Below the pieces are notes generated by a model, which saw only the letters and a list, made by a program, of their open reading frames with translations, did not search any database and had not been told where the DNA came from. Made by a program: the position numbers and the translations under genes. Of a stretch of DNA of 47,655 bases, positions 1,178 through 38,939 are shown in pieces. The DNA comes from Prolixibacteraceae bacterium (GTDB lineage: Bacteria > Bacteroidota > Bacteroidia > Bacteroidales > Prolixibacteraceae), in contig JAGODU010000014.1 of assembly GCA_017998095.1 (NCBI GenBank), positions 1 to 47,655 on the forward strand, read 5' to 3'. Positions within the stretch are counted from its first letter, which is position 1; each line of letters starts with the position of its first letter.

Positions 1178-1245
1178 TGAAGTATGTATTCAATTATTAC
1201 AGGAAAAGAATTAAAATTTAAATGAAATACCTCATGAAATTGCAA

Positions 1246-1259
1246 GACAAACGTTTGCA
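1246..1259. promoter_or_regulatory. Distal LacI-type operator upstream of kduI
   Basis: The ten-base palindrome CAAACGTTTG is at 1248-1257, with the consensus CA flank on the right side only (GACAAACGTTTGCA). It matches the perfect palindrome between lacI and kdgK. It is 270 bases upstream of the proximal kduI operator, a distance compatible with looping. Assignment to the LacI protein encoded at 6694-7722 is inference. Confidence 0.65.
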
Positions 1260-1515
1260 TGATTTTAATTTATTTGGCATATTTTCAGAAATATTTGTCT
1301 TGATTTTATTTGATTATTTTATAATAAGCAATAGATCAAGAGAGTAAAATATAAATTGAAACGCATTTTGATTTTACAAGATCATAAAATATTATTTATG
1401 ATTTTGTCTTCAAAATTTTTTTTAAAAGAAAAAAATAGTATTTTTATTTCATATTCTTATTTTATTTATTCTTAATAATACATATATAGTTGTAAATAAG
1501 CATTATAAACATAAG

Positions 1516-1529
1516 TGCAAACGTTTGAA
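1516..1529. promoter_or_regulatory. Proximal LacI-type operator of kduI-kduD
   Basis: TGCAAACGTTTGAA matches the lacI-kdgK operator at 12 of 14 positions and ends nine bases before the kduI ATG. A weak -7-like TATAGTTG lies at 1485-1492, so the operator would sit at or just past the transcription start and act as a block. Confidence 0.75.
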
Positions 1530-1538
1530 TAATATATT

Positions 1539-2381
1539 ATGACACTAAAGACAGATAATAGATTTGCAGTACATCCGCATGATTTTAAGAAATACGATAC
1601 TCTGCGTATAAGGAACGAATTTCTTGTTTCAGAAGTGATGATTAATGATCAGATAACTTTAACGTACAGTCAATATGATAGATATATTGTTGGAGGGGCA
1701 GTGCCTGCAACAAAAGAATTGAATCTGGATGTTTTTGATTCTTTGAAGGCAGATTACTTTCTTGAAAGGAGAGAAATGGGAATTATTAATGTTGGTGGCA
1801 GCGGAAAAGTAAAGACCAGCGATACTATTTATGAACTTGGATACAAGGATGCCCTATACCTTGGAAAAGGAACAAAGGACGTTGTCTTCATATCGGATGA
1901 TTATACAAATCCTGCTCATTTCTATATTAATTCGGCTCCTGCTCATAAGGAATATCCTTCTAAAATAGTAACGCTTGCTGATGCTAACGTAATCAAGGCC
2001 GGCTCTTCTGCTACATCAAATGAAAGACAGATAAATCAGTTGCTGATTAATAAAGTTGTACAAACCTGTCAGCTTCAAATGGGGATGACGGAGCTTAAGG
2101 AAGGGAGTGTTTGGAACACAATGCCGGTTCATACTCATGACAGAAGGATGGAAGCTTATTTTTATTTCAATGTACCTAAAGGTCAGGCTGTTTGCCATTT
2201 CATGGGGCAACCTGATGAAACTCGTCATATCTGGATGAAAAACGAGCAGGCTGTTCTTTCTCCTGCATGGAGTATTCATAGCGCTGCCGGAACAGCAAAT
2301 TACACTTTTATTTGGGGTATGGCTGGTGAAAACCTTGATTACGGAGATATGGATGTCTATCAACCTGATGAACTGAAATGA
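1539..2381 (+). CDS. kduI: 5-dehydro-4-deoxy-D-glucuronate isomerase (KduI)
   Basis: This enzyme isomerises 5-keto-4-deoxyuronate (DKI), formed from unsaturated galacturonate or glucuronate released by lyases, to 3-deoxy-D-glycero-2,5-hexodiulosonate. At 280 residues it is the family's usual length. The cupin metal ligands known from the E. coli enzyme are recognisable at His198, His200 (MPVHTHDRR), Glu205 and His247 (WSIHSAAG). The C-terminal [10 protein letters not shown] segment is also typical. The ATG follows the LacI operator by nine bases. It is co-directional with kduD, 51 bases downstream, which performs the next step, so the two form an operon for lyase-derived uronates. Cytoplasmic. 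Confidence 0.96.
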
Positions 2382-2432: not shown

Positions 2433-3236
2433 ATGATTTCAGAATTATTTGATTTAAAAGGAAAGATAGCCCTTATTACCGGTGGCACTCACGGTATAGG
2501 GATGGCAATTGGCAAAGTACTTGGTCAGGCCGGTGCAAAGATTTGTGTTAACGATCTTATGGAAGAAAGGCTTGCTGCATGCAAGGAGGAATATGCCAAA
2601 GAAGGAATTGATGTTTTTACCCTTGTTTTCGATGTGACAAACGAGGCGGATGTTGATAAGGGTATAAGTATAATTGAAAAGGAAGTTGGAACAATAGATA
2701 TTCTTGTTAATAATGCAGGTATTATTAAAAGGATACCTATACTTGATATGCCAATTTCTGATTATAAACAAGTGATTGATGTTGATCTTGTTGCTCCGCT
2801 AATTGTATCAAAAAGGGTAGCCCCGAATATGATTAAAAAGAGAAGCGGAAAGATAATCAATATGTGTTCTATGATGAGTGTTTATGGGAGAAATACTGTG
2901 TCAGCATACGCCTCAGCAAAGGGTGGGTTAAAACTTCTTACTGCAAGCATGACCTGTGAATGGGCAAAATACAACATTCAGGTTAATGGAATTGGTCCCG
3001 GATATATTGCTACTTCGCAAACTGCAGCTATTCGTGAGGGTAATCATCCATTCAATGATTTAGTTATGACCCGTACACCGGCAGGACGTTGGGGACAGCC
3101 GGAAGATGTAGGGAATGCAGCATTGTTCCTGGCTTCCAAAGCAAGTGATTTTGTTAACGGTCATGTGCTTTACGTTGACGGAGGAATACTTGCTAATTTT
3201 GGATATGTTAAAGGTGAAAATGAGATTCCTGAGTAA
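2433..3236 (+). CDS. kduD: 2-dehydro-3-deoxy-D-gluconate 5-dehydrogenase (KduD), SDR family
   Basis: A short-chain dehydrogenase that reduces the KduI product to 2-keto-3-deoxygluconate (KDG) with NAD(P)H. The classical SDR motifs are present: TGGTHGIG at residues 17-24, NNAG at 93-96, and the catalytic set Ser146, Tyr159 and Lys163 (YASAK). The 267 residues and the RIPILDMP and ISDYKQVIDVDL segments match KduD-type enzymes. It follows kduI directly. Its product feeds the kinase and aldolase of the operon at 7835. It converges on the minus-strand gene ending at 3246, with only nine bases between them and no clear terminator. Confidence 0.93.
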   Translation: MISELFDLKGKIALITGGTHGIGMAIGKVLGQAGAKICVNDLMEERLAACKEEYAKEGIDVFTLVFDVTNEADVDKGISIIEKEVGTIDILVNNAGIIKRIPILDMPISDYKQVIDVDLVAPLIVSKRVAPNMIKKRSGKIINMCSMMSVYGRNTVSAYASAKGGLKLLTASMTCEWAKYNIQVNGIGPGYIATSQTAAIREGNHPFNDLVMTRTPAGRWGQPEDVGNAALFLASKASDFVNGHVLYVDGGILANFGYVKGENEIPE

Positions 3237-5149: not shown

Positions 5150-6550
5150 TTAGAAATTAAAATAACGTTTTGCATTGTTGTAACTGATGTCTTTGACTAT
5201 CCCTCCAACTAGATCAAAATCATGGGGAATTTCGCCATTTTCCATGTCATTACCAAACAGATTGCACATTATTCTTCTAAAATATTCATGACGCGGGAAA
5301 GAAAGGAAGCTTCTTGAATCAGTAAGCATACCAATAAATTGGCTAATGAGACCTAAGGCAGATAAAGAATTCATTTGAGCTGTCATTCCAAGTTTTTGAT
5401 CGAGGAACCACCATCCTGAGCCGAACTGTATTTTTCCTGCAACAGGTCCTTCATTGAAGTTGCCAAGCATAGTTGCTATCATTTCATTATCTGCAGGATT
5501 GATATTGTAAAGGATAGTCTTAGTAAGTTTTTCTTCGCTGTTTAACTTATTAAGGAATTTAACAAGATTAGCAGCAACTTTAAAGTCACCAATTGAGTCG
5601 TAACCTGTATCAGGACCAAGGATGCTGAACATTCTGGTATTATTATTTCTCAATACTCCATAGTGAAATTGTTGAACCCATCCTTTAGCGTGGTCCATTC
5701 TTGCAAATTCAAGGAGCATGAAAGATTTGAATTTTTTGAGTTCTTTCTTTTCAAGAGATTTTCCTTTTCGTACCTTCTTGAATATCTTATTGATTTCATC
5801 CTGAGTAAAGTCCTCTGCATAAAATTCTTCAAGGCCATGGTCAGATACCCTGCATCCTGTGCTGGCAAAGAAGTCATGTCTTTTTTGAAGAGCAACAAGC
5901 AGATCGTCGGGAGTATTAATTTCAATTTCTGCAATAGCGCTAAGTTTATCGATGTATGCATTATAAACTTCCGGATTATCAGCATTCATAGCTTTATCAG
6001 GACGCCATGCCGGAAAAGCTTTAAATGGTGTTTCCATAGAAGCAATTTTTAAATGATATTCAAGATTGTCGATAGGGTCGTCGGTAGTGCAGAGAACATC
6101 TACTTTCATTTTATTAAGCAGACCATGTACAGAATATTCCGGTGTCTGAAGCAATTTTTCAGTCTTGGCATAAATATCTGCTGCTGTCGAAGGATTTAGT
6201 AGGTCATCTATTCCGAAATATCTTTTTAATTCGAGATGAGTCCAGTGATACAAAGGATTACGTAATGTATATGGTACTGTTTCAGCCCATTTTTCAAATT
6301 TTTCAAAATCTGAAGCATTCCCTGTTATGAATTTTTCATCGACGCCAAAAGCTCTCATTGCTCTCCATTTATAATGGTCTCCTTTGAGCCATATTTGAGT
6401 TGGATTTTTAAAGTTGATATTATCAGCAATTTCCTGAGGGGGGAGATGATTATGGTAATCAATGATAGGCATTTCTGCTGCATAATCGTGATATAAACGT
6501 TCAGCTGCCTTTGAGTTCAGCATGAAGTTGTCGTCCATGAATTTTTTCAT
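5150..6550 (-). CDS. uxaC: Glucuronate/galacturonate isomerase (UxaC)
   Basis: Interconverts D-glucuronate with D-fructuronate and D-galacturonate with D-tagaturonate, the first step for saturated hexuronates. The 466 residues match UxaC. An amidohydrolase-type His-x-His (DYHNHL, His33 and His35) follows the conserved N-terminus, and the C-terminal LTDSRSFLSFPRHEYFRR segment is diagnostic for the family. It lies on the minus strand behind lacI with a 143-base gap containing no clear operator or terminator, so it is probably read from the lacI promoter. The next two steps are encoded across the divergent promoter by uxaE and the SDR at 9573. The start could be Met1 or Met5. Confidence 0.95.
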   Translation of the reverse strand: MKKFMDDNFMLNSKAAERLYHDYAAEMPIIDYHNHLPPQEIADNINFKNPTQIWLKGDHYKWRAMRAFGVDEKFITGNASDFEKFEKWAETVPYTLRNPLYHWTHLELKRYFGIDDLLNPSTAADIYAKTEKLLQTPEYSVHGLLNKMKVDVLCTTDDPIDNLEYHLKIASMETPFKAFPAWRPDKAMNADNPEVYNAYIDKLSAIAEIEINTPDDLLVALQKRHDFFASTGCRVSDHGLEEFYAEDFTQDEINKIFKKVRKGKSLEKKELKKFKSFMLLEFARMDHAKGWVQQFHYGVLRNNNTRMFSILGPDTGYDSIGDFKVAANLVKFLNKLNSEEKLTKTILYNINPADNEMIATMLGNFNEGPVAGKIQFGSGWWFLDQKLGMTAQMNSLSALGLISQFIGMLTDSRSFLSFPRHEYFRRIMCNLFGNDMENGEIPHDFDLVGGIVKDISYNNAKRYFNF

Positions 6551-6693: not shown

Positions 6694-7722
6694 TTAAATA
6701 TTTTTCTTTATAGAAGTTTCTCTAATAATCAATTTTGGTTTAAGAACGATTTTTCTTGGTATAAACTCATCAGAATTAGAGTTTAACTGTTCCAGGAGGA
6801 GGTTAGCAGCAGCTTTCCCCATTTCCTCGCTGTATTGTTCAACGGTTGTCAGTTTTGGGTGTATAAGTTCTGCAAAAGGTTCATTGGAATAACCTGTAAC
6901 TGCAATATCTTCAGGTACTTTAACTCCGTTATCTTGACAAGCCTGGAGAACTCCCATTGCCATATAGTCAGAAGTTGCAAATACTACCTCTGGGATATTT
7001 TTATTATCTATCAGCTCTTTCATATAATTATAAGCTACCTGCAATACAGGTGTAGCTTCAAAGCATTTCATTTTATTTAAATCGATGTTATTTTCTTCGA
7101 GAGCTTTTTTGTAGCCGTTAAAACGGTTTCTGTAAATGCTTGAAGTTCTGGGTCCTCCCATCCATAAGAAGTCTTTGTATCCTTGTTCTATAAGGTGAAT
7201 TGCAGTTTCATAAGAACCAGCTTCATCGTCATTTTCAACTTTATTTACATTCATCTTATTTGAAACTCTGTCAAACATTACAATTGGGATGTGAGCGTTG
7301 ATTGCTTTATGTAAATGTTTAACTTCATGTGTTTCAACTGAAATTGAAATGAGAATTCCACCAACTCGATTTGCAATAAGAGTTTCCACGTTTTCAATTT
7401 CCTTTTCATATCTTTCTTCCGACTGGCAAATAATAAGAGTATACCCTGCAGGATTAAGAATACTTTCCACTCCGGTAATTACGTTAGAGAAGAAGTGACG
7501 ATTAATCCTGGGAACAATCATGCCGATAGTATTTGCTTTTCCTTTTCGGAGGTTTGACGCAATAGTGTTAGGACGATATTGAAGTTCCCGGGCAGTGTCC
7601 CATACTAATTGTTTGGTTTGACTGCTTATTTTAGGGTGGTCGTTCAGAGCCCTTGAGACAGTAGAAGCCGTAATATTCAAGGCTTTTGCTATATCTTGAA
7701 TTGTAGCTTGTTTCTTTGACAT
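6694..7722 (-). CDS. LacI-family transcriptional regulator of the hexuronate genes
   Basis: A 342-residue regulator with the LacI helix-turn-helix at residues 7-30 (ATIQDIAKALNITASTVSRA), the hinge region near LRKGKANTIG, and a periplasmic-binding-protein-like effector domain (residues about 62-340; TTVEQ near the end is typical). It is divergent from the kdgK operon, and the gap contains an 18-bp perfect palindrome that is the likely autoregulatory site. The same palindrome before kduI suggests it controls the whole locus. The effector, perhaps KDG or a related keto-acid, is not shown by the sequence. Confidence 0.92.
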   Translation of the reverse strand: MSKKQATIQDIAKALNITASTVSRALNDHPKISSQTKQLVWDTARELQYRPNTIASNLRKGKANTIGMIVPRINRHFFSNVITGVESILNPAGYTLIICQSEERYEKEIENVETLIANRVGGILISISVETHEVKHLHKAINAHIPIVMFDRVSNKMNVNKVENDDEAGSYETAIHLIEQGYKDFLWMGGPRTSSIYRNRFNGYKKALEENNIDLNKMKCFEATPVLQVAYNYMKELIDNKNIPEVVFATSDYMAMGVLQACQDNGVKVPEDIAVTGYSNEPFAELIHPKLTTVEQYSEEMGKAAANLLLEQLNSNSDEFIPRKIVLKPKLIIRETSIKKNI

Positions 7723-7753: not shown

Positions 7754-7779
7754 CAAATATATAAAAAAAATAATGCAAA
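7754..7779 (-). promoter_or_regulatory. Probable lacI promoter
   Basis: On the minus strand a perfect -7 element TATATTTG (7754-7761) lies 31 bases before the lacI ATG. A TTTG (7776-7779) inside the operator could serve as the -33 element, although the 14-base spacing is shorter than usual. Binding at the operator should therefore repress lacI as well. Confidence 0.5.
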
Positions 7780-7789
7780 CGTTTGCATT
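7772..7789. promoter_or_regulatory. Perfect LacI-type operator between lacI and kdgK
   Basis: AATGCAAACGTTTGCATT is an 18-bp perfect palindrome with a central CG, as is typical for LacI/GalR-family operators. It sits between the divergent lacI and kdgK genes and includes the -33 TTTG of the kdgK promoter. Confidence 0.9.
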
Positions 7790-7834: not shown

Positions 7835-8869
7835 ATGAAGAAAGTTGTTACGTTCGGAGAGATAATGTTGCGATTGGCAACTCCCGGTTTTTTAAGGTTT
7901 GATCAGACTGATCAGTTCTCAGCTACGTTTGGAGGTGGCGAAGCTAATGTTGCGGTTTCGCTTGCAAACTATGGTATTGAAGTTGATTTTGTTAGTCGTC
8001 TTCCGAAGAATGATATAGGATTGGCATGCATGAAAGACCTAAGGAAATATGGAGTTGGGGTAAGCAATATAATTTGGGGAGGAGAAAGGTTGGGTATATA
8101 TTATCTTGAAACCGGTGCTGTTAATCGCGGTAGTAAGGTGATTTATGATAGGGCTCATTCCTCTGTTTCTGAAATAAAAATTGGGATGATTGACTGGGAT
8201 GAGGTTTTTGAAGGTGCAACATGGTTTCATTGGACAGGAATAACTCCGGCAATTTCACAAGGTGCGGCTGATGTTTGTCTTGAAGCTTGTAAAAAGGCAA
8301 ATGAAAAAGGAATTACAGTTTCATGTGATTTGAATTACAGAAAAAATCTTTGGAAATATGGTAAAAGTGCAAAGGAAGTAATGCCTGAACTGGTTGCATG
8401 TTGTGACATAATCCTTGGAAATGAAGAAGATGCAGAGAAAGTATTGGGCATAAAACCCGAAGGTGTTGATATAACAGGAGGTCATGTTGAAGGTAAAGCT
8501 TATGAATCTGTATCAAGGCAAATAATGACTGATTTTCCACGTTGCAAGAAAGTTATTACAACTTTGAGGGGGTCGGTGAATGCTAACAATAACAGCTGGA
8601 CAGGTGTTTTATGGAACGGTAGGTCTTTATTTGACGCACCTACTTATCAGATAACACATATTGTTGACCGGGTAGGAGGAGGAGATTCATTCATGGGCGG
8701 CTTGATTTATGGGTTGATTACATGGCCTGAAGATGATAAGAAAGCCCTCGGATTTGCAGTAGCAGCTTCAGCTCTTAAGCACACTATTTATGGTGATTAC
8801 AACAGAGTATCGGTCGATGAAGTTGAAAAGCTTATGGAAGGAGATGCTACAGGAAGGGTAGCCCGTTAA
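7835..8869 (+). CDS. kdgK: 2-keto-3-deoxygluconate kinase (KdgK), PfkB family
   Basis: Phosphorylates KDG to KDPG, joining the KduI-KduD branch to the Entner-Doudoroff aldolase. The 344-residue protein has the PfkB N-terminal signature GGGEANVAVSLANYG (residues 33-47), the ribokinase-fold core with CDLNYR at 164-169, GNEEDA, and the C-terminal catalytic motif VGGGDSFMGG with Asp284 as the likely base. It is the first gene of a nine-gene operon and lies directly behind the operator-promoter. The aldolase gene follows after 29 bases, which supports KDG as substrate. Compare the divergent second kinase at 10464. Confidence 0.93.
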   Translation: MKKVVTFGEIMLRLATPGFLRFDQTDQFSATFGGGEANVAVSLANYGIEVDFVSRLPKNDIGLACMKDLRKYGVGVSNIIWGGERLGIYYLETGAVNRGSKVIYDRAHSSVSEIKIGMIDWDEVFEGATWFHWTGITPAISQGAADVCLEACKKANEKGITVSCDLNYRKNLWKYGKSAKEVMPELVACCDIILGNEEDAEKVLGIKPEGVDITGGHVEGKAYESVSRQIMTDFPRCKKVITTLRGSVNANNNSWTGVLWNGRSLFDAPTYQITHIVDRVGGGDSFMGGLIYGLITWPEDDKKALGFAVAASALKHTIYGDYNRVSVDEVEKLMEGDATGRVAR

Positions 8870-8898: not shown

Positions 8899-9576
8899 AT
8901 GGCAAAATATTCCAGAATAGAAGTTTTTCTGAAAATGAAAGAAACAGGCATGGTTCCCTTGTTTTATAATCCTGATGCCGAAGTGTGTAAAAAAATGGCA
9001 AAGGCTTGTTACGATGGTGGTGCCAGGGCGTTTGAATTTACCAATAGGGGTGAGTTTGCTCAGGAAGTATTTAAGGAATTATCTTTATTTGCTAAAGCCG
9101 AACTACCGGGAATGGCAGTAGGTGTAGGATCTATTGTTGATGCCGGAACTACTTCAATGTATATTCAGCTTGGAGCTGACTTTATAGTATCTCCAATCAT
9201 GAATCCCGAAATGGCAAAGGTTTGCAACCGAAGGAAAATATTATGGTCGCCTGGTTGTGGCACTTTATCAGAAATAAATCAGGCAGAAGAGTTGGGTTGT
9301 GAGCTTGTAAAGATATTCCCTGCTGAACAAATTGGTGGACCTGCTTTTGTTGCATCAATCAAGGCGCCTTGTCCATGGACTGATATAATGCCATCGGGAG
9401 GAGTGACACCTGAATATGATAATATTAAAGCATGGTTTAAGGCAGGAGCAACTTGTGTTGGCATGGGATCTCAGCTAATGAAAAAGAGTTATTATACTGA
9501 TAACAAATATGATGAGCTGGCAGTTAAAGTTAAAGAGACAATAGAACTTATACAAAAAATAAAATCTGAATTATGA
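8899..9576 (+). CDS. kdgA: KDPG/KHG aldolase (KdgA/Eda)
   Basis: Splits 2-keto-3-deoxy-6-phosphogluconate into pyruvate and glyceraldehyde-3-phosphate. The 225 residues form the class I aldolase TIM barrel, with Glu46 in FEFTNRG and the Schiff-base lysine Lys138 in LVKIFPAEQIGG, followed by the phosphate-binding MPSGGVTP and GMGSQL loops. Its stop overlaps the start of the next gene (ATGA at 9573-9576), indicating translational coupling. Confidence 0.95.
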   Translation: MAKYSRIEVFLKMKETGMVPLFYNPDAEVCKKMAKACYDGGARAFEFTNRGEFAQEVFKELSLFAKAELPGMAVGVGSIVDAGTTSMYIQLGADFIVSPIMNPEMAKVCNRRKILWSPGCGTLSEINQAEELGCELVKIFPAEQIGGPAFVASIKAPCPWTDIMPSGGVTPEYDNIKAWFKAGATCVGMGSQLMKKSYYTDNKYDELAVKVKETIELIQKIKSEL

Positions 9577-10427
9577 TAACAACAAATGAACTATTAGGTC
9601 TTGAAGGTAAATCGGCTGTAATAACCGGTGCCGGGGGTGTTATATGCAGTAAAATTGCAGAAGGTCTTTGCAGCGTAGGTATGAATGTTTTTCTTCTTGA
9701 TTTGAATGAAGAAGCTGCTAAGGCTGTAGCAGGAGAATTAAAAACGAAATATCCGGAACAAACAATAGTAGGATTAAAATCTAATGTTCTTGACAAAGAA
9801 TCTCTTGAAAGCGTCAAAGTTGAAATTTTAAAACATGTCGATGCAATCGATTACATCATAAATGGAGCAGGAGGTAATTCCCCAAAAGCAACAACCCAGG
9901 CAGAGCAAATAATAAAGGGTGAAACAGATGAAATGACGGATTTTTTCAGCTTACAGATGGATGGTTTTGATCATGTATTCAACCTTAATTTTAAAGGTAC
10001 ATTATTACCTACAATGGTTTTTGCTAAAGAAATGATATCAAGAGGGTCAGGTGGAGTGTTGAATATATCATCTATGAATGCTTTCAGACCTTTAACAAAG
10101 ATTCCGGCATATTCAGCAGCGAAATCTTCAATAAATAATTTCACGGAATGGCTTTCTGTCCATTTTGCAAAGACAGGTGTAAGGGTAAACGCTATAGCTC
10201 CGGGATTCTTTCTTACTAATCAGAATAGGTTCCTCATGATTGATGAAAAAACAGGTGATCTTTCGCCAAGGGGAAACAAGATTATAAATAATACTCCAAT
10301 GGGAAGATTTGGCGAGATTGATGAGCTTATAGGAACTACGATTTATCTTTTATCAGATATGTCAAAGTTTGTTACAGGAATAGTCATTCCGATTGACGGT
10401 GGCTTTAGCGCATTCAGCGGAGTATAA
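9573..10427 (+). CDS. uxuB: SDR-type D-mannonate oxidoreductase / fructuronate reductase (UxuB-like)
   Basis: A 284-residue short-chain dehydrogenase predicted to reduce D-fructuronate to D-mannonate with NAD(P)H. The nucleotide motif is TGAGGVIC (18-25), the GGV-x-C variant I associate with SDR-type UxuB (as in Bacillus) rather than the classic TGxxxGxG. NGAGGN (98-102) replaces NNAG and carries the usual UxuB-like insertion before the next helix. The catalytic set is Ser166/167, Tyr180 and Lys184 (YSAAK). It overlaps kdgA by four bases. UxaC and UxaE, which supply fructuronate, are in the same locus. It is not homologous to the long-chain E. coli UxuB; the substrate is inferred from family and context. 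Confidence 0.85.
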   Translation: MITTNELLGLEGKSAVITGAGGVICSKIAEGLCSVGMNVFLLDLNEEAAKAVAGELKTKYPEQTIVGLKSNVLDKESLESVKVEILKHVDAIDYIINGAGGNSPKATTQAEQIIKGETDEMTDFFSLQMDGFDHVFNLNFKGTLLPTMVFAKEMISRGSGGVLNISSMNAFRPLTKIPAYSAAKSSINNFTEWLSVHFAKTGVRVNAIAPGFFLTNQNRFLMIDEKTGDLSPRGNKIINNTPMGRFGEIDELIGTTIYLLSDMSKFVTGIVIPIDGGFSAFSGV

Positions 10428-10463
10428 TAATAATCAAACTAATTATTTTAAAATTTATATGAT

Positions 10464-11543
10464 ATGAGCATTCAACTTAAAAAAGAATATACATTTTCAT
10501 TACTTGTTCCAACTAGTATGGGAGTCAGAATAACGCCTGTAAACGGTCAGCCCGTTCACAGCAGTGATACATTCAAGATGCAGGCAACAAGTGCAGAAAC
10601 CAATGTGGCAAGTATACCTTCATTTTTAGGCTTGCCGGTCAAAGTGCTTACCACCTTTGTAAAAGGAAGCCCGGTTGCACAATTTATAAAGAGCAATCTT
10701 TTAAGCAGGAATATGGTTTTTGAAGGACCGGAAGTAGATCAGGGAGGACCGTGGGGATATCGTCATCAGTTTAATATTGCTGATAGTGGTTATGGCTCAA
10801 GGGGGCCAAGAGTTCAGAACGATCGGGCTGGCGAAGTTGGCAGGACATTAAATGTAAAAGATTTTGATCTTGAAAAAATATTCGGTAAAGAAGGCGTACA
10901 GATTGTTCATTTATCGGGACTTATTGGGGCACTTTCGCCAGAAACGAGCAAGTTCTGTCTGGAAATAGCCAGAGCAGCTAAGAAACATGGAACCAGAATA
11001 GCCTTTGATCTTAATTTCAGGGCATCCTTTTGGAAGGGACGTGAAAAAGAGTTGCATGACATATTTACTGAGATAGCCTCATTGTCAGATATTCTTGTCG
11101 GGAATGAAGAGGATTTCCAGTTATGTCTTGGAATTGAAGGTCCGGAAGCTGGTGGTAAAGGATTGAACGATAAGATTGACAGCTTTAAGGAAATGATAGG
11201 CAGAGTTAAAAAGGCATTTCCAAATGCAACGGTTTTTGCAACAACATTACGTCAGGTTATCAGTACGAATGAACATTTATGGGGTGCGATTATGCTTGAG
11301 AACGACAACTGGCATGTAATTGAACCAAGGCAAATTACTGTACTTGATCGTATTGGTGGTGGCGATGGATTTGTTGGCGGATTACTCTATGGAATATTAA
11401 AATGCTGGGAACCTGAAAAGTGGGTACAGTTTGGATGGGCAACTGGAGCTTTGGCAACGACTTTTCTAACAGATTATGCACAACCGGCAGATGAGGAAAT
11501 GGTTTGGAGTATCTGGCAAGGAAATGCAAGAGTAAAGAGGTAA
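10464..11543 (+). CDS. Divergent PfkB-family sugar/sugar-acid kinase
   Basis: A 359-residue paralogue of KdgK from the same operon. The C-terminal half keeps the kinase core: FDLNFRASFW (181-190), GNEEDF (213-218) and catalytic RIGGGDGFVGG (Asp301). The N-terminal sugar-contacting signature is altered: TSAETNVAS (42-50) where KdgK has GGGEANVAV, so the glycine turn is lost. The lid region near 90-125 (GGPWGYRHQF, then GYGSRGPRVQND) is also unlike KdgK. This suggests a substrate other than KDG. Position before a LarA-like epimerase and gnd makes gluconate (giving 6-phosphogluconate) a candidate, which is inference. A 152-base gap follows. Confidence 0.8.
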   Translation: MSIQLKKEYTFSLLVPTSMGVRITPVNGQPVHSSDTFKMQATSAETNVASIPSFLGLPVKVLTTFVKGSPVAQFIKSNLLSRNMVFEGPEVDQGGPWGYRHQFNIADSGYGSRGPRVQNDRAGEVGRTLNVKDFDLEKIFGKEGVQIVHLSGLIGALSPETSKFCLEIARAAKKHGTRIAFDLNFRASFWKGREKELHDIFTEIASLSDILVGNEEDFQLCLGIEGPEAGGKGLNDKIDSFKEMIGRVKKAFPNATVFATTLRQVISTNEHLWGAIMLENDNWHVIEPRQITVLDRIGGGDGFVGGLLYGILKCWEPEKWVQFGWATGALATTFLTDYAQPADEEMVWSIWQGNARVKR

Positions 11544-11695
11544 ACAATATATCAAGTGATATGAATTATATCAACCTAATAAATAACTTAGTTTAGTTCT
11601 TTAAAATATATCAATAATTTGATAAATTACACAAAATATATAAATACCAAATTAATAATGTTGTGGTTATATATGTAAAATAAAAAACTAAGGAT

Positions 11696-12670
11696 ATGAA
11701 ATTAAGAACTTTATTTGGGGTTTTACTTGTCTCTTTAATCTTCAGTTCTTGTAAGATGGGAGGAGATGTGAAGATTGGGTTTCTGATTCATTCACTGGCG
11801 AACAGCAGGTGGCAGGGAGATTTAAAGTATTTGAAGGAAAAAGCTGGAGCAAACGGGGTTGAAATTATCGTTAAAGAAGCAAATAACGATGAAGATATCC
11901 AGTTGAAACAGGCAGAAGAGCTTATCAAAGACGGAGTAGATGTTTTAATTGTTGTTGCAGCTAACCAAAATACAGCAGCAGCTATTGTAAGGGAAGCAAA
12001 TGACAAAGGTGTTCCGGTCATTTCGTATGACAGACTTATTAGAAATGCAGAGTTGAGTTGTTATCTGTCGTTTAACTATGAAGACGTGGGCAAGCAAATG
12101 ATTGAATACGCAGTATCGAAGAAGCCGGAAGGTAATTATATCTTTCTTTGGGGAGATGCTTCTGATGCAAATGCACGTTTTATTAGTAAGGGACACCTTG
12201 AGGCTATTAAACCATACCTTGACAATGGTAAGATTAATGTTATCAGCAGGCAGTATATTGATGATTATTCATCACCGGCAACAGTAAATGCAATAAGTGA
12301 GATTTATAACTTCACGAGTAAACCTATTGATGCTGTTATTTGTGGAAGTGGAACAATGGCTGAAGCAGTGGTTGATTTCTTTAAAAAGGAAGAGTACCCT
12401 TCTCATATTATAATAACCGGACAAGATTTAACTGCAAAATCTCGTTTACTAATAAAAGAAGGAAAACTCGATATGACTGTACATAAATCCGTAAAAGACC
12501 TTGCATACAGTGCAATAGATGTTGCATTAGACCTTGCCAAAGATGGACGTTTGAAAAAAGGCAGGGATTATAAATATGTAAATAATGGACGAAAAGATAT
12601 TCCTTCTATACTATTACCTGCTACAACTGTTTCGATTCAGAACCTTGACAAATTTGTAAATGCAGATTAA
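11696..12670 (+). CDS. XylF/RbsB-like periplasmic sugar-binding lipoprotein (orphan)
   Basis: A type I periplasmic-binding protein (Peripla_BP_4/XylF-like) of 324 residues. The N-terminus is a lipoprotein signal with the lipidated cysteine at residue 19 (FSSCKMGG). KIGFLIHSLANSRWQGD, VDVLIVVAANQNTAAAIV and VISYDRLI are typical of D-xylose-binding proteins; TGQDLTAKS matches the second lobe. It would sit in the periplasm, anchored to a membrane. No ABC ATPase or permease is encoded nearby and uptake is provided by the MFS gene at 15489, so the protein may be a capture or sensing component. The ligand is probably a sugar or sugar acid of this pathway. Confidence 0.85.
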   Translation: MKLRTLFGVLLVSLIFSSCKMGGDVKIGFLIHSLANSRWQGDLKYLKEKAGANGVEIIVKEANNDEDIQLKQAEELIKDGVDVLIVVAANQNTAAAIVREANDKGVPVISYDRLIRNAELSCYLSFNYEDVGKQMIEYAVSKKPEGNYIFLWGDASDANARFISKGHLEAIKPYLDNGKINVISRQYIDDYSSPATVNAISEIYNFTSKPIDAVICGSGTMAEAVVDFFKKEEYPSHIIITGQDLTAKSRLLIKEGKLDMTVHKSVKDLAYSAIDVALDLAKDGRLKKGRDYKYVNNGRKDIPSILLPATTVSIQNLDKFVNAD

Positions 12671-12695
12671 AAAATAATTTCATAAACTATTTATA

Positions 12696-13982
12696 ATGAT
12701 ATATTTTGAAAAAGGATCGGCAGATTCCATATTAAAAGATGAAGATTTAAAAGCTGGCTTATTTAAAGCACTGGATAATCTTGGAAACAAGAAAAAAGTA
12801 ATGGCAATTCCCCCTGATTATACCAGGTTGCCATCAAAAGCAGGCATACTTACTTCTTATGTATTTGAATATTATAAAAGCAATCTTAAAGATATACTTC
12901 CAGCCTTAGGAACACATACAGCGATGACAAACAGTCAGATAGAACATATGTTTCCTGGTGTAGATAAAAATTTGTTCAGGGTACACGACTGGCGAAATGA
13001 TGTTGTAACTATTGGGGAAGTTCCGGGTTCTTATGTGCAAGAAGTTTCTGGGGGTAAGGTTAATTTCAATTGGCCGGCACAAGTGAACAAGCTTCTTGCA
13101 GAAGGTGGACACGATCTTATTCTTTCATTGGGACAAGTCGTTCCTCATGAAGTAGTTGGAATGGCTAATTACAACAAAAATATCTTTGTTGGAACTGGTG
13201 GTTCAGAAGGTATAAATAAAAGTCATTTCATTGGGGCAGCCTATGGGATGGAAAAAATGATGGGAAGAGCTGATACTCCTGTGAGGAAGGTTTTCAACTA
13301 TGCATCTGAAAAGTTTGCTTCAAATCTGCCGATTGTATATGTGCAAACTGTAGTCGGAGTTGATAAAAACGGTTCTCTTGTAACAAGAGGGTTATTCATA
13401 GGAGATGATTTTGAAGTTTTTCAAAAAGCGGCGGAACTTTCGATGAAAGTGAACTTTGATATGGTTGAAAAACCGCTTGAGAAAGTTGTTGTATGGCTTG
13501 ATCCTACTGAATTTAAAAGTACATGGCTTGGAAATAAAAGTATATATAGAACCAGAATGGCAATGGCAGATGGGGGAGAACTAATTGTATTGGCTCCTGC
13601 ATTAAAAGAATTTGGTGAGGACAAGATTATTGACGGATTAATTAGAAAATACGGTTATAAAGGAACTCCATACACTTTGAAGATGGTTGAAAAAAATGAT
13701 GACCTGAAACAAAATCTGGGAGCTGCAGCTCATTTGATTCACGGATCATCGGAAGGAAGGTTCAGTGTAACATATTGCCCTGGTAAGAATCCTGAAAACC
13801 TTACAAGAGAAGATATTGAAAGTGTAGGTTTTATATTTGGAGATTTAGATGAAATGTGTTTGAAGTACAATCCTGAATCATTGAAAAATGGATTCAACAT
13901 ACTTGAAAATGGAGAGGAGATATTTTACATATCAAATCCAGCATTAGGGTTATGGGCATATAAAGACAGGTTTACAGATTGA
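12696..13982 (+). CDS. LarA-family nickel-pincer hydroxyacid racemase/epimerase
   Basis: A 428-residue LarA-domain protein (DUF2088 N-terminal domain). Active-site residues of lactate racemase can be placed: GTHTAMT with His74, His97 in VHDW, His151 in PHEVVG, Lys161 and His177 (NKSH). The 10- and 16-residue spacings from His151 to Lys161 to His177 equal those of His174, Lys184 and His200 in Lactobacillus plantarum LarA, where the lysine tethers the nickel-pincer nucleotide and the last histidine binds nickel. The canonical SGGxK stretch is replaced by ANYNK. The family epimerises alpha-hydroxyacids at C2. In this operon the pair D-mannonate/D-gluconate fits best, by inference. LarB/LarC/LarE cofactor genes are not in the window. 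Confidence 0.85.
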   Translation: MIYFEKGSADSILKDEDLKAGLFKALDNLGNKKKVMAIPPDYTRLPSKAGILTSYVFEYYKSNLKDILPALGTHTAMTNSQIEHMFPGVDKNLFRVHDWRNDVVTIGEVPGSYVQEVSGGKVNFNWPAQVNKLLAEGGHDLILSLGQVVPHEVVGMANYNKNIFVGTGGSEGINKSHFIGAAYGMEKMMGRADTPVRKVFNYASEKFASNLPIVYVQTVVGVDKNGSLVTRGLFIGDDFEVFQKAAELSMKVNFDMVEKPLEKVVVWLDPTEFKSTWLGNKSIYRTRMAMADGGELIVLAPALKEFGEDKIIDGLIRKYGYKGTPYTLKMVEKNDDLKQNLGAAAHLIHGSSEGRFSVTYCPGKNPENLTREDIESVGFIFGDLDEMCLKYNPESLKNGFNILENGEEIFYISNPALGLWAYKDRFTD

Positions 13983-14019
13983 TAATCTAAAATAAAAGAA
14001 ATAAATAAAACAAAATACT

Positions 14020-15474
14020 ATGGCAAAAAAAGCAGATATTGGATTAATCGGATTAGCTGTAATGGGTGAAAATCTGGTTCTTAATATGGAAAGTAAAGGA
14101 TTCACAGTTGCGGTATTTAACCGTACTGTTGAGAAAGTAGATAATTTTATCAATGGCAGGGGAGCAGGTAAGAAGTTTATAGGAGCCCATTCGATTGCCG
14201 AGTTTTGTGCATCTCTTGAAAGACCAAGAAAAGTTATGATGCTGGTAAAAGCAGGTCAGGCGGTAGATGACTTTATCGAATTACTTTTACCTTATCTCGA
14301 ATCGGGAGACATAATTATTGACGGAGGTAATTCACATTTTCCAGATACAATCAGGAGAACAAAGTATGTTGAAAGCAAAGGGCTATTATATATTGGAACC
14401 GGAGTTTCCGGCGGTGAGGAAGGCGCATTATTAGGACCTTCAATGATGCCTGGTGGTTCACCTGCTGCATGGCCTCATGTTAAAAACATTTTCCAGGCAG
14501 TAGCAGCAAAGGTAGAAGATGGTTCACCCTGTTGTGACTGGGTTGGAGAAGATGGAGCAGGTCATTTTGTGAAGATGGTTCACAATGGGATTGAATATGG
14601 TGATATGCAAATCATAACAGAAGCCTATCATTTGATGAAAGATATTCTTGGAATGACTGCTGATGAAATGCATCTAGCTTTCAAAAAATACAATGAAGAA
14701 GAATTGGGGTCGTACCTGATTGAGATAACAAGAGATATATTGGCTTATAAAGATGAAGACGGTTCAGCTTTGGTTGAAAAGATTCTTGATACTGCCGGAC
14801 AAAAGGGTACAGGAAAATGGACAGGAATTTCAGCACTTGATTTGGGTATACCACTCACATTGATAGGAGAATCTGTGTTTGCACGTTGTCTCTCAGCACA
14901 GAAAGATTTAAGGGTCATGGCTTCAAAGGAAATATCAGGTCCAATGCCTGAATTCAAGGGAGACAGGAATCAATTTATTGAAGATATTAAGATGGCTCTT
15001 TACGGTGCAAAGATTATATCTTATGCTCAGGGATATAACTTAATGATGGAAGCTGCAAAAGAATATGGATGGAATTTGAATTACGGGGGTATTGCTTTAA
15101 TGTGGAGGGGAGGATGTATCATCCGTTCAGTTTTCCTTGGTGATATTAAAAAGGCATTTGATAATAACCCTGCTTTACCGAACTTATTGTTAGATCCATT
15201 CTTCAAAGAAACAATAGAAAAAGCTCAGGCAGGATGGAGAAGAGTATGTGCAACAGCATTATCTAATGGTATACCTGTACCGGCCTTAACATCAGCTTTA
15301 TGCTATTTTGATGGATTTAGAAGTGAAAGGCTACCTGCTAATCTTTTACAGGCTCAGCGTGACTACTTTGGAGCACATACTTATGAAAGAATTGATAAAC
15401 CAAGGGGCGAATTCTTCCATACAAATTGGACAGGTCGTGGAGGAGATACCGCATCAACAACTTACACAGTATAG
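14020..15474 (+). CDS. gnd: 6-phosphogluconate dehydrogenase, decarboxylating
   Basis: Oxidises and decarboxylates 6-phosphogluconate to ribulose-5-phosphate. It is full length at 484 residues: GLIGLAVMGENL (8-19) is the dinucleotide fold; FNRT (33-36) is the NADP-type loop; GVSGGEEGA (128-136), Lys185, His188, Asn189 and Glu192 (HFVKMVHNGIEYGDMQ) form the active site; and the C-terminal FHTNWTGRGG closes the neighbouring subunit's site. It follows the LarA-like gene by 37 bases. Finding gnd inside a uronate operon rather than with zwf and pgl suggests that 6-phosphogluconate is made by this pathway. Confidence 0.97.
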   Translation: MAKKADIGLIGLAVMGENLVLNMESKGFTVAVFNRTVEKVDNFINGRGAGKKFIGAHSIAEFCASLERPRKVMMLVKAGQAVDDFIELLLPYLESGDIIIDGGNSHFPDTIRRTKYVESKGLLYIGTGVSGGEEGALLGPSMMPGGSPAAWPHVKNIFQAVAAKVEDGSPCCDWVGEDGAGHFVKMVHNGIEYGDMQIITEAYHLMKDILGMTADEMHLAFKKYNEEELGSYLIEITRDILAYKDEDGSALVEKILDTAGQKGTGKWTGISALDLGIPLTLIGESVFARCLSAQKDLRVMASKEISGPMPEFKGDRNQFIEDIKMALYGAKIISYAQGYNLMMEAAKEYGWNLNYGGIALMWRGGCIIRSVFLGDIKKAFDNNPALPNLLLDPFFKETIEKAQAGWRRVCATALSNGIPVPALTSALCYFDGFRSERLPANLLQAQRDYFGAHTYERIDKPRGEFFHTNWTGRGGDTASTTYTV

Positions 15475-15488
15475 TAAACCTTAGAAAC

Positions 15489-16949
15489 ATGACAAACTAT
15501 AAAACCGATCAGGGTAATGGTAAAATGACTAACTACAGATGGGTTATCTGTGTTATGTTGTTTTTTGGTGTTGCAATAAATTATATGGATCGTCAGGTAC
15601 TTTCTCTGACTTGGAAGGACTTTATTGCTCCGGAGTTTCATTGGACAAACAGTCATTATGGTACGATAACATCTCTTTTTTCAATTTTTTATGCATTAAG
15701 TATGCTTTTTGCCGGCAGGTTTATTGACTGGCTGGATACAAAAAAAGGATTTCTGATAGCAATTGGTGTTTGGTCACTTGGTGCATGTCTTCATGCATTT
15801 TGTGGTATTGCTACATCAGGAATACTTACCGGAGAATGGTTTGTAGGATTTGAAAAAGCTAAAGAATTAATTGCTTCAGTTGACAATATAGGTAAAGTTA
15901 TTAATGTAAGCGTTGCCTTATTTGTATTTGCCCGGTTTGTTCTAGCACTTGGAGAATCAGGAAACTTCCCTGCATCGATTAAGGCTACAGCTGAATATTT
16001 TCCTAAAAAGGACAGGGCATTTTCAACTAGTATCTTTAATTCAGGTGCAACTATAGGCGCTTTGATTGCTCCTCTTACAATACCGGTAATAGCTCATTAC
16101 TACGGATGGGAGATGTCGTTTATTATTATTGGTGCCCTAGGTTTTATCTGGATGGGTTTTTGGGTGTTTGTTTATAAAAAACCATATGCAAATCCTAAGG
16201 TTAATAAGGCAGAATTGGATTATATACATCAGGATAATGATCATCACACTGTTGATGAAAACGGAACAGTAAAACGTAAACTTACCTTCTTTGAATGTTT
16301 TAAATACAAACAAACGTGGGCGTTTGCTTTTGGGAAATTCATGACTGACGGAGTTTGGTGGTTTTACTTATTCTGGACACCGGCTTATTTAAGTTCAGTA
16401 TATGGCTTGGCTTCAGATAACAATACTGCAAAACTATTAATTTTTGTTCTTTATGCAATAACAATGTTGTCTATTGTAGGAGGATGGCTTCCAACTTATT
16501 TTGTAGATAAGAAAGGTATGAACCCTTATGCCGGGAGGATGAAATCAATGTTGATATTTGCTTTCTTGCCTTTGTTAGCTCTTCTTGCTCAGCCATTAGG
16601 GAACTATTCATATTGGTTTCCGATTATTATAATAGGAATTGCAGGAGCTGCCCATCAGGCATGGTCAGCAAATATATTTTCTACAATTGGAGATATGTTT
16701 CCACGAACAGCCATAGCTACAGTTACGGGCATTGGAGGTATGGCAGGAGGAATAGGATCATATATCATTAACAAAGGTTCAGGTAAGCTATTTGATTATG
16801 CTGAAATTACGCAAATGAAGTTTATGGGTTTTGAAGGTATAAAATCAGGATATTTCATTATTTTTTCAATCTGTGCCGTAGCGTATCTGATAGGATGGAT
16901 AGTTATGAAATCACTGGTTCCTAAATATAAACCCATAGTAGTGGAATAA
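15489..16949 (+). CDS. exuT: Hexuronate MFS transporter (ExuT-like)
   Basis: An anion:cation symporter-type MFS protein with 12 predicted membrane segments. The first segment ends in the family hallmark NYMDRQVLS, and GESGNFPASIKATAEYFP marks helix 4 and its loop, as in ExuT, GudP and DgoT. An insertion of about 30 residues after helix 3 (TGEWFVGFEKAKEL onward) is unusual compared with E. coli ExuT but, as I recall, common in Bacteroidota homologues. The ATG at 15489 is preferred to an in-frame TTG overlapping gnd; a second ATG at 15525 is also possible. It probably imports galacturonate, glucuronate or unsaturated uronates for the operon. Confidence 0.87.
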   Translation: MTNYKTDQGNGKMTNYRWVICVMLFFGVAINYMDRQVLSLTWKDFIAPEFHWTNSHYGTITSLFSIFYALSMLFAGRFIDWLDTKKGFLIAIGVWSLGACLHAFCGIATSGILTGEWFVGFEKAKELIASVDNIGKVINVSVALFVFARFVLALGESGNFPASIKATAEYFPKKDRAFSTSIFNSGATIGALIAPLTIPVIAHYYGWEMSFIIIGALGFIWMGFWVFVYKKPYANPKVNKAELDYIHQDNDHHTVDENGTVKRKLTFFECFKYKQTWAFAFGKFMTDGVWWFYLFWTPAYLSSVYGLASDNNTAKLLIFVLYAITMLSIVGGWLPTYFVDKKGMNPYAGRMKSMLIFAFLPLLALLAQPLGNYSYWFPIIIIGIAGAAHQAWSANIFSTIGDMFPRTAIATVTGIGGMAGGIGSYIINKGSGKLFDYAEITQMKFMGFEGIKSGYFIIFSICAVAYLIGWIVMKSLVPKYKPIVVE

Positions 16950-16960
16950 ATAATAATGAA

Positions 16961-18208
16961 ATGAGAAAAATAAGTAAATATTCATTTGGCATTGGTGATC
17001 GTTTTGGTCACCAGGGCAAGGCTCAGTTAAAAGCATTTATAGCAGCAAAAGAACAACTTGGAATTGAATTTACTCCGGTTTGGAATAAATCATTCCGTGA
17101 ACATTCAATAATTGGGACTCATCCTTCAGAAGTAAGGAAAGAAGCTGATGAAGCAGTAAATGTCCTTGGATGGAAGGGAGATTACTATGTAGATGCTGAT
17201 CATATTAATTTTAAAAATGTAGATTCTTTCATAGATGCATCTGATTTTTTTACTATTGATGTAGCTGATTTCATTGGAAAGGGAGCATCCGAAGAAAAGA
17301 TAAATGAGTTTGTAGAAAACCATAAAAGTTTTCTTGGTAAATTCAATATTCCCGGAATTACTGATTCTTTCATTATTGAAGAGGATTATTTAAAGAAATT
17401 TGCAGCTAATTATCTGAATGCAATAGAAGAAGCATCAAAGGTATTTAGATTTCTTAACGAAAAAAAAGGTGAAGGCAACTTTGTTCCTGAAGTATCATGT
17501 GATGAGACAGACACGCCGCAATCGCCTCTTGATATGTTTTTCATTTTGAAATTGCTCTCAGATTATAAGGTGCCAGCACAAACAATAGCACCAAGATTCT
17601 CGGGAAGATTCAACAAAGGAGTTGATTACGTAGGAAATCTTGTACTTTTTGAAAAGGAGTTTGAACAGGATCTGTTAGTTATCGACTATGCAGTAAAACA
17701 ATTTGGATTGCCTGACAATCTGAAGCTTAGTGTGCATTCAGGAAGTGATAAATTTTCTATATATCCGATAATTGGGAAACTGATCAAGAAGCACGATAAA
17801 GGTATTCATATAAAAACAGCTGGGACAACCTGGCTCGAAGAGATAGCCGGACTTGCTATATCCGGAGGAGAAGGTCTTTCTCTTGCTAAAGAAGTATATA
17901 CTTCTGCTTACGAAAAGATGGATGAACTTTGTGCTCCCTATGCATCAGTTATTGATATAAAATTGGAAAGGTTACCAAAACCGGAGGTTGTACAGACTTG
18001 GACAGCAGAGCAATTTGGCAATGCAATTGTGCATAACCAAAATTGCAGCGAATATAATCCGGATTTAAGGCAATTAATACACGTAGGTTATAAGATTGCA
18101 GCAAAAAAAGGTGAAGTTTATTATTGTGCATTAGAGAAGTTCGAACCTAATATTGAAAAACAAGTTTTTGAGAATATTTTCAACAGGCATATGATGCTTT
18201 TAAAGTAA
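16961..18208 (+). CDS. uxaE: D-tagaturonate 3-epimerase (UxaE)
   Basis: A 415-residue protein of the UxaE family, known from Thermotoga, which converts D-tagaturonate to D-fructuronate and lets galacturonate enter the glucuronate branch. Recognisable parts are the N-terminal KYSFGIGDRFGHQGKAQL, DADHINF near residue 79, EVSCDETDTPQSP in the middle and KTAGTTWLEE in the C-terminal half. It starts 11 bases after the transporter and is the last gene before the terminator. With UxaC and the SDR it completes galacturonate to mannonate without UxaB/UxaA. Assigned by overall sequence resemblance and context. Confidence 0.85.
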   Translation: MRKISKYSFGIGDRFGHQGKAQLKAFIAAKEQLGIEFTPVWNKSFREHSIIGTHPSEVRKEADEAVNVLGWKGDYYVDADHINFKNVDSFIDASDFFTIDVADFIGKGASEEKINEFVENHKSFLGKFNIPGITDSFIIEEDYLKKFAANYLNAIEEASKVFRFLNEKKGEGNFVPEVSCDETDTPQSPLDMFFILKLLSDYKVPAQTIAPRFSGRFNKGVDYVGNLVLFEKEFEQDLLVIDYAVKQFGLPDNLKLSVHSGSDKFSIYPIIGKLIKKHDKGIHIKTAGTTWLEEIAGLAISGGEGLSLAKEVYTSAYEKMDELCAPYASVIDIKLERLPKPEVVQTWTAEQFGNAIVHNQNCSEYNPDLRQLIHVGYKIAAKKGEVYYCALEKFEPNIEKQVFENIFNRHMMLLK

Positions 18209-38488: not shown

Positions 38489-38939
38489 TTCCATATTCAA
38501 CAAGATCTTTCCTGATCCAAAGGGAATCTATCAGATTATTAGATACTTCATAATTTGTAATGTTATAATAATTTACAAACCCGCATTCATGTGATACCAG
38601 TTTTAAATATTGAGTATAAACAAAAGTCAGGGTATCCTTAATGCCGGATTCAAATTCCATTATAAAGGATGAAGTGTCGGAAATCATAGAAAGGGGTAAT
38701 GCAATCGTTTTAATTTCTTTACTTTTGCCATCGTAAAATACAGTTAAAGAATCATTTAAGAGATAAACCTTCAAAGAATCAATAAGTGTATCCTGAAGTG
38801 ATTTTCCGTCAAACGTGTAAAATCCAATATTTGCCCTTACTCCGTCGGAATATTCGCAAGGATCGGCAGTACATGAACTTACTGCTACAATTATGATTAT
38901 TAATCTGATGAAATTCTTTATTCCTTTTTGAAAATACAT
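38460..38939 (-). CDS. DUF6452-like lipoprotein
   Basis: A 159-residue protein with a lipoprotein signal (helix 11-20, SSC with Cys23) and two further cysteines (PCEYSDG, HECGF) that could form a disulfide. Predicted beta-rich. Its stop lies inside the start of the barrel gene downstream. It is possibly an envelope partner of that barrel. Function unknown. Confidence 0.7.
   Translation of the reverse strand: MYFQKGIKNFIRLIIIIVAVSSCTADPCEYSDGVRANIGFYTFDGKSLQDTLIDSLKVYLLNDSLTVFYDGKSKEIKTIALPLSMISDTSSFIMEFESGIKDTLTFVYTQYLKLVSHECGFVNYYNITNYEVSNNLIDSLWIRKDLVEYGNEENIKIYF

Follow-up and report, generated by a model that had tools for sequence, protein, structure and literature searches.

How is D-mannonate consumed in a hexuronate operon that leads from galacturonate to D-mannonate and has no gene for mannonate dehydratase (UxuA)? 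The question is raised by a 47.7 kb stretch of DNA from Prolixibacteraceae bacterium (47,655 nt; assembly GCA_017998095.1, contig JAGODU010000014.1), which was analysed as a whole and is called the window here. Two gene runs diverge from a LacI operator: lacI-uxaC (minus strand) and kdgK-kdgA-uxuB-pfkB-(xylF-like)-larA-gnd-MFS-uxaE (plus strand; Table 1; MFS, major facilitator superfamily). The UxuA protein of a relative gave no tblastn match anywhere in the window, a result that covers the window and not the rest of its organism's genome. A first-pass annotation of this DNA had suggested that a LarA-family epimerase, a divergent PfkB kinase and Gnd take mannonate through gluconate and 6-phosphogluconate to ribulose-5-phosphate, in a nickel-dependent bypass of UxuA. 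The genes it named, and the lack of uxuA among them, were confirmed at their positions in the window, and profile searches agreed with all but KduD, which is assigned by context.

The proposed mannonate branch of the operon

The uxuB-pfkB-larA-gnd set is best read, as had been proposed, as a route from mannonate to ribulose-5-phosphate, because the genes are linked, are inherited jointly and carry fitting active-site signatures. UxaC would isomerise galacturonate or glucuronate, UxaE would epimerise tagaturonate to fructuronate, and UxuB would reduce fructuronate to D-mannonate. The LarA protein, of group 18, would then invert C2 to give D-gluconate, the PfkB kinase would phosphorylate C6 to give 6-phosphogluconate, and Gnd would decarboxylate this to ribulose-5-phosphate, giving back the reducing equivalent used by UxuB if both share a cofactor. 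KdgK and KdgA of the same operon would take 2-keto-3-deoxygluconate (KDG) from KduI-KduD and, where present, from UxuA. This is probably a pectin-side hexuronate operon with two exits, in which the net route from mannonate to ribulose-5-phosphate passes through the LarA and kinase steps in either order; the substrates and cofactor of these steps and the flux through them are predictions.

Gene linkage was examined in 78 loci, which a search of the genome collection with the LarA protein had brought up; their taxon labels are taken from record titles. Full context (at least 4 kb upstream and at least 5 kb downstream) was available for 39. Within 8 kb of larA in these, at identity thresholds of 60% (gnd), 60% (pfkB) and 38% (uxuB), gnd was found in 38, pfkB in 33, uxuB in 33 and all three in 33; the loci missing some of them are L061, L062, L068, L069, L072 and L076. 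Over all 78 loci, contig-cut ones included, the counts were 64 (gnd), 64 (pfkB) and 55 (uxuB). The linkage is seen in Bacteroidota, Kiritimatiellae and Melioribacteraceae records, and the orders differ: pfkB-larA-gnd in the window type, pfkB-gnd-larA in L035, larA-uxuB-gnd-pfkB in Kiritimatiellae L065, and lacI-uxaE-uxaC-TRAP-uxuB-pfkB-larA-gnd in one run in Melioribacteraceae L059 (TRAP, tripartite ATP-independent periplasmic transporter; TRAP and UxaE by Pfam). Linkage kept through such reshuffling is stronger evidence than one conserved operon.

The Firmicutes/Bacillota loci L068, L069 and L071 have the order gnd-larA-uxaE. To look for a replacement kinase, three genes adjoining larA in L069 were classified, and none is a kinase. 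Phosphofructokinase-type genes near larA (L062, L074, L076) were also considered and fit ordinary phosphofructokinase models. In the Treponema records, an ATP-dependent phosphofructokinase gene stands directly before group 18 larA (L074:2191-3516, overlapping it; L076:8606-9946), and no gnd was found in these two loci.

Joint inheritance was assessed in 108 genomes from the family to which G006 belongs (completeness of at least 90% requested), 27 of which are shared with the set of 50 genomes that lie behind the larA loci. larA is present in 101 of the 108 and the pfkB kinase (E value of 1e-60 or better) in 99: both genes occur in 99 genomes, larA only in two, pfkB only in none and neither in seven. 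In G121, one of the two larA-only genomes, the gene lies where a contig of 7.2 kb ends. There is also an association of larA with UxaC (both in 96, larA only in five, UxaC only in three, neither in four; p = 0.0007), and of the three genomes that have UxaC and lack larA, two carry UxuA over 300 bits. Both association tests ignore kinship among the genomes.

By score and signature the window LarA protein is a member of group 18 (NF052594, 'nickel-dependent putative hexonate epimerase'; Table 1), and its nearest organism-named matches are from Prolixibacteraceae and related Bacteroidota. The closest solved structure is 4NAR (E value 6e-40), that of Thermotoga maritima GntE2, which was shown in 2020 to convert D-mannonate to D-gluconate (PMC7583248; published work is cited throughout from the available parts of the papers). 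The first-pass annotation also refers to a described gluconate 2-epimerase; a eukaryotic gluconate 2-epimerase was shown in 2024 (PMC11770544). Group 18 was hypothesised in 2020, without assay, to epimerise a hexonate (PMC7583248), and no group 18 member is named as assayed in the literature text available. The residues that bind the nickel-pincer nucleotide (NPN) cofactor (R75, K184, H200) and the catalytic residues (D72, H108, H174, K298; LarA numbering, PMC7583248) were mapped through the alignment with 4NAR. They correspond to D41, R44, H74, H151, K161, H177 and K281 of the window protein, in which H151 is followed by an E152-V153 loop, as described for groups 18-20.

The net route proposed in the annotation is supported as the best reading, and its epimerase and kinase steps may come in either order. 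The galacturonate-phosphoketolase route of Lactobacillus suebicus likewise leads from mannonate to 6-phosphogluconate and ribulose-5-phosphate and is redox-cofactor-neutral, and in it phosphorylation precedes epimerisation: extracts made no gluconate from mannonate and, when given ATP, first phosphorylated and then epimerised (PMC6978723). By the same order, PfkB would make 6-phosphomannonate and LarA would epimerise the phosphate to 6-phosphogluconate for Gnd. This variant, which lies within the net route given above, is unlikely. LarA groups 19 and 20, which have features of the group 18 signature, act on free mannonate (PMC7583248), and the L. suebicus genes for both key enzymes, the epimerase among them, are without assignment in the text available (PMC6978723).

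The kinase has a Pfam PfkB match and reaches the cut-off of none of the NCBIfam kinase models listed. Its nearest solved relative by sequence is the KDG kinase 2AFB (E value 2e-30), and it fails the curated KDG-kinase model NF041332 (90 bits, cut-off 440), under which the window's own KdgK also falls (222 bits). In an alignment of 128 PfkB kinases with 25 KdgK proteins from the same loci, the catalytic Asp301, Arg121 and Arg186 are common to both (each in at least 95% of the 128), and Tyr89 and Tyr104 of KdgK are replaced by Asn104 and Asn119 in the PfkB kinase (again each in at least 95%). The two arginines (R121, R186) presumably grip the KDG carboxylate, and the tyrosines are taken to touch the KDG chain, as in the Thermus enzyme. 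On that reading, PfkB would be a sugar-acid kinase with an altered substrate, and gluconate or mannonate would fit it, the sequence favouring neither. It is very improbable that PfkB is a second KDG kinase, with Gnd a housekeeping pentose-phosphate gene placed here by chance. The closest solved structure and the KDG-making enzymes of the regulon would agree with this; a KdgK is already there (69-84% identical where found in the loci), both KdgK tyrosines are replaced in PfkB as described, and gnd is linked to larA in all but one of the full-context loci. No PfkB gluconate kinase was noticed in the available literature, judged by title or abstract start among the matches listed.

GntK of T. maritima belongs to the FGGY family of kinases. 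The route itself is not a new idea, because T. maritima has the same arrangement and a proven epimerase; Rodionova et al. put it forward in 2012 (cited through PMC6978723 and PMC7583248). The UxaR pectin operon of that species is aldH-pelB-gnd-uxaRED-gntEK, and kdgAK-uxuBA is a separate operon, for glucuronate, under the same regulator (PMC3750489). As in the window, a LarA-family C2 epimerase, a kinase and Gnd share one regulon with the genes that convert galacturonate to mannonate (PMC3750489). T. maritima has the group 20 epimerase GntE (PMC7583248) and a GntR-family regulator (PMC3750489), whereas the window has group 18 and LacI, a PfkB-family kinase, MFS or (in relatives) TRAP uptake, and kdgK-kdgA at the head of the operon. 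With the Ashwell route (UxaC-UxuB-UxuA-KdgK-KdgA), the window has in common UxaC, the UxuB function, KdgK and KdgA; it differs in having no UxuA and in its additional Gnd, LarA homolog and second PfkB.

What is new is the group 18 epimerase with a PfkB kinase, the LacI regulon and the missing cofactor genes. To group 18 are added the pfkB/gnd gene context and its occurrence without larBCE, and a group that is a prediction in the literature available so far gains a precise, testable substrate and partner genes. The presence of the epimerase gene in 101 of 108 genomes suggests that the little-tested branch from uronates to gluconate is no Thermotoga oddity. larA, pfkB and gnd also occur together in at least two other lineages (Melioribacteraceae L059 and Kiritimatiellae L065), the kinase being of another family than that of Thermotoga.

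UxuA as an alternative or companion exit

Several observations weigh against the proposed branch. In the literature available, none of the enzymes of this particular set has been assayed, and many of the genomes compared are metagenome-assembled. This PfkB was not found in six of the 39 full-context loci, Firmicutes and Treponema records among them. UxuA matches occur in 64 of the 108 family genomes (in 54 they exceed 300 bits, in the others they are weaker or partial), and uxuA lies inside 12 of the 155 fetched larA or pfkB loci (9 distinct records); the LarA branch and UxuA often coexist. Finally, larB, larC and larE were not found over their cut-offs in 57 of the 101 family genomes with larA, and missing NPN genes are hard to square with an NPN enzyme.

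Among the 50 genomes behind the loci, UxuA is present in 24 and KdgA in 46, so the KDG exit is nearly always open too. Seven close relatives were examined for uxuA (G001, G002, G003, G070, G071, G121 and G122; LarA 79-81% identical), the equally close L020 and L058 being left out. All seven have uxuA and a second UxuB gene adjoining an alpha-glucuronidase of glycoside hydrolase family 67 (GH67); the assignment to GH67 comes from Pfam in G001 and G002 and from similarity in the other five. The claim of a UxuA bypass is therefore not established. A LacI gene heads the GH67 operon in six of the relatives, and in the seventh the contig ends within GH67. Upstream of this LacI gene in G001-G003 is an operator-like site that is 2 bases in 14 off the window operator. 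Because uxuA and the second UxuB sit beside the alpha-glucuronidase in these relatives, the glucuronate of xylan seems to be the task of UxuA and the galacturonate of pectin that of the larA operon, a division like the one between kdgAK-uxuBA and the pectin operon in T. maritima.

The split between uxuA and larA operons is not strict, as seen in the 12 loci with uxuA and in G122, where uxuA also lies between uxuB and pfkB under an operator identical to that of the window. The first-pass annotation had held that a uxuA gene under the same LacI operator would speak against a bypass; such a gene is thus present in a relative, a result for G122 and not for the window's own organism. With uxuA in a relative's operon under an identical operator, the LarA branch is better seen as a second mannonate exit, sometimes the sole one. 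The annotation had suggested a survey of larA, pfkB and gnd in uronate operons lacking uxuA. The three genes go together in 33 of the 39 full-context loci, 38 of the 99 family genomes with UxaC have larA and no UxuA match, and the 12 loci above contain uxuA.

These data also bear on a different arrangement, in which the UxuA route is the main exit and larA-pfkB-gnd handles gluconate or another imported hexonate, placed in the operon through common inducers. The uxuA genes beside GH67 in all seven close relatives, uxuA within the operon of G122 and KdgK-KdgA at the operon head are consistent with it. It is nonetheless rather unlikely, given the 38 larA genomes without a UxuA match, the GH67 operons with a UxuB of their own and, in the three checked, the divergent operator-like site, and Melioribacteraceae L059, which has the complete set and no uxuA found in its genome (G036).

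ManD, the mannonate dehydratase of the enolase superfamily, was tried as a hidden substitute for UxuA in the 22 genomes with larA, without LarC and without UxuA over 300 bits. All 22 have MR_MLE_C matches; 10 matched proteins (from 7 genomes) were classified, and the best scored 160 against a cut-off of 550. In G089, two of four enolase-superfamily matches were classified, neither of them ManD, and the other two are MenC-like and enolase by a guess from length.

Genes for the NPN cofactor

LarB, LarC and LarE of a relative gave no tblastn match in the window. Of the 108 family genomes, 46 have LarC, and LarE and LarB each pass their cut-off in 45; within the LarC set, LarE is lacking only in G061, whose match is fragmentary, and LarB only in G121. 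LarB and LarE matches elsewhere, far under the cut-offs, are probably common homologs. Group 18 larA and LarC show no association (both in 44 genomes, larA only in 57, LarC only in two, neither in five; p = 0.70); in the set of 50 genomes, which reaches beyond the family, LarC is present in 16. With larB, larC and larE missing from so many larA genomes, the label 'nickel-dependent' of the first-pass annotation is unsafe. In seven genomes without LarBCE, the larA contig is about the whole genome (G073, G075, G084, G089, G090, G092 and G119), so the absence is not merely a draft-genome effect; the same holds for the larA contig of G051, G072 and G120, where LarBCE are present. G089, a single 6.24 Mb contig, has UxaC, UxaE, KdgA, UxuB, PfkB, LarA and Gnd, with no UxuA match and no LarBCE.

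Among the 121 genomes compared, 51 of them with LarC and 70 without, none shows a change in any cofactor or catalytic residue of LarA, and every cofactor residue is kept in the 56 of the 57 LarBCE-less family genomes that were compared. On a FastTree tree of 99 family LarA proteins and that of the window (G063, with a split gene, and G078 were left out), there are at least 22 changes of LarC state, and LarC is missing throughout a group of 20 genomes, with Maribellus and Draconibacterium among them. The ratio of nonsynonymous to synonymous divergence (dN/dS) was obtained by a simple counting method for pairs with dS of 0.05-1.5. For larA, the medians of two groups without LarC were 0.032 (48 pairs) and 0.021 (3), and those of three groups with LarC were 0.040 (40 pairs), 0.041 (4) and 0.031 (2); the values for pfkB, gnd and uxuB were 0.017-0.058. 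larA is under strong purifying selection where measured, and there was no internal stop in the larA matches checked.

Other LarA homologs were considered as the reason for LarBCE. Extra Lar_N matches over cut-off occur in 10 family genomes, six with LarC and four without, and occurring in both alike they do not explain the LarBCE pattern. In G112 and G123, larB, larC and larE are present and no Lar_N protein was found, so there may be another NPN user in the family. Genomes with larBCE and without larA have been reported (PMC11796402). No report of the reverse case was noticed among the papers listed in a literature search that covered few subscription papers.

A conserved larA without larBCE poses the question of where the nickel cofactor comes from, or whether it is needed at all. 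Either NPN is obtained from outside, or it is made by an unrecognised route, or the enzyme of LarBCE-less genomes has no need of it; the invariant K161 and H177 would favour an unchanged cofactor. Tentatively, and with about as much to be said against it as for it, group 18 LarA may be a working hexonate epimerase in LarBCE-less bacteria, through uptake of NPN or a precursor from neighbours, another biosynthesis, or another cofactor in an unchanged site. If so, LarBCE-less genomes would tend to keep UxuA as a fallback, much as B12 auxotrophs, which take the vitamin from neighbours, keep MetE. UxuA is kept in 35 of 57 LarC-negative and 17 of 44 LarC-positive larA genomes (p = 0.028). In independent pairs on the tree, the count is 4.0 for and 0.8 against, with a median p of 0.25, so this retention is only a hint.

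Layout, LacI operator and neighbouring genes

The positions of the genes and sites discussed are given in Table 1. Regulon membership is taken from one operator and from gene order. At up to 3 mismatches, the window has four operator matches, against 0.11 expected by chance; besides those near kdgK and kduI, there is a third operator-like site at 38698-38715. The 16-base core of the operator is exact in 8 of the 183 fetched loci, upstream of kdgK in all eight and beside lacI in seven, the eighth (L020) being cut by the contig end.

Table 1. Genes and sites of the hexuronate locus in the window.
Feature	Position	Strand	Support
Operator-like site, 3 mismatches, upstream of kduI	1244..1261		Motif search
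Operator-like site, 3 mismatches, just upstream of kduI	1514..1531	+	Motif search
KduI, 5-keto-4-deoxyuronate isomerase	1539..2381	+	NF002091 432 bits, cut-off 250
Short-chain dehydrogenase/reductase (SDR), KduD by context	2433..3236	+	Best model NF005488 gluconate 5-dehydrogenase, 430 bits, cut-off 369
UxaC, glucuronate/galacturonate isomerase	5150..6550	-	NF002794 627 bits, cut-off 387
LacI-family regulator of the regulon	6694..7722	-	PF00356, PF13377
LacI operator, perfect 18-base palindrome	7772..7789		Between lacI-uxaC and the kdgK-to-uxaE genes
KdgK, KDG kinase	7835..8869	+	492 bits to kinase part of NF041633 (fusion model, cut-off 700, below); PF00294
KdgA, 2-keto-3-deoxy-6-phosphogluconate (KDPG) aldolase	8899..9576	+	NF005499 351 bits, cut-off 275
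UxuB function: SDR fructuronate reductase / D-mannonate oxidoreductase	9573..10427	+	NF006132 375 bits, cut-off 281
PfkB-family sugar-acid kinase, proposed gluconate (or mannonate) 6-kinase	10464..11543	+	PF00294; best PDB kin 2AFB
XylF-like periplasmic sugar-binding lipoprotein (lipoprotein by eye)	11696..12670	+	PF13407 162 bits
LarA-superfamily group 18 hexonate 2-epimerase (proposed: D-mannonate/D-gluconate or 6-phosphates)	12696..13982	+	NF052594 650 bits, cut-off 500
Gnd, 6-phosphogluconate dehydrogenase, decarboxylating	14020..15474	+	TIGR00873 756 bits, cut-off 427
MFS uptake protein (ExuT-like by context)	15426..16949	+	PF07690
UxaE, tagaturonate-fructuronate epimerase	16961..18208	+	PF16257 202 bits, cut-off 27; no NCBIfam match

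The first-pass annotation had assigned unsaturated uronates to KduI-KduD-KdgK-KdgA. KduI and KdgA pass their cut-offs; the neighbour of kduI passes that for gluconate 5-dehydrogenase and falls under those of the KduD models, so its name rests on context.

Within the operon, uxuB and pfkB are separated by 36 bases. The listed TTG start of the MFS gene, which overlaps gnd, is probably too early. In L001, L002, L003 and L097, a TRAP transporter stands at the MFS end of the operon (Pfam DctP, DctQ and DctM confirmed for L001). The XylF-like protein has no ABC (ATP-binding cassette) permease or ATPase adjoining it in the operon and few kin (L001, L002, L020, L058 and L097; 43-45% identity), and is possibly a sensor or a leftover. 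Directly after uxaE, at 18345-19154, is a short histidine kinase of 269 aa with little space for a sensor part, and one of 262 aa likewise follows uxaE in L001.

In many relatives, genes for a Gfo/Idh/MocA oxidoreductase and a PdxB-like 4-phosphoerythronate dehydrogenase lie between larA and gnd (47 and 48 of 79 loci compared, respectively; e.g., L004, L010, L013, L025); both are absent from the window. The whole larA region of Mariniphaga sediminis, 21,278 bases, occurs twice without a difference, on separate scaffolds of the same genome (L026 and L028), which is either a large duplication or an assembly artefact.

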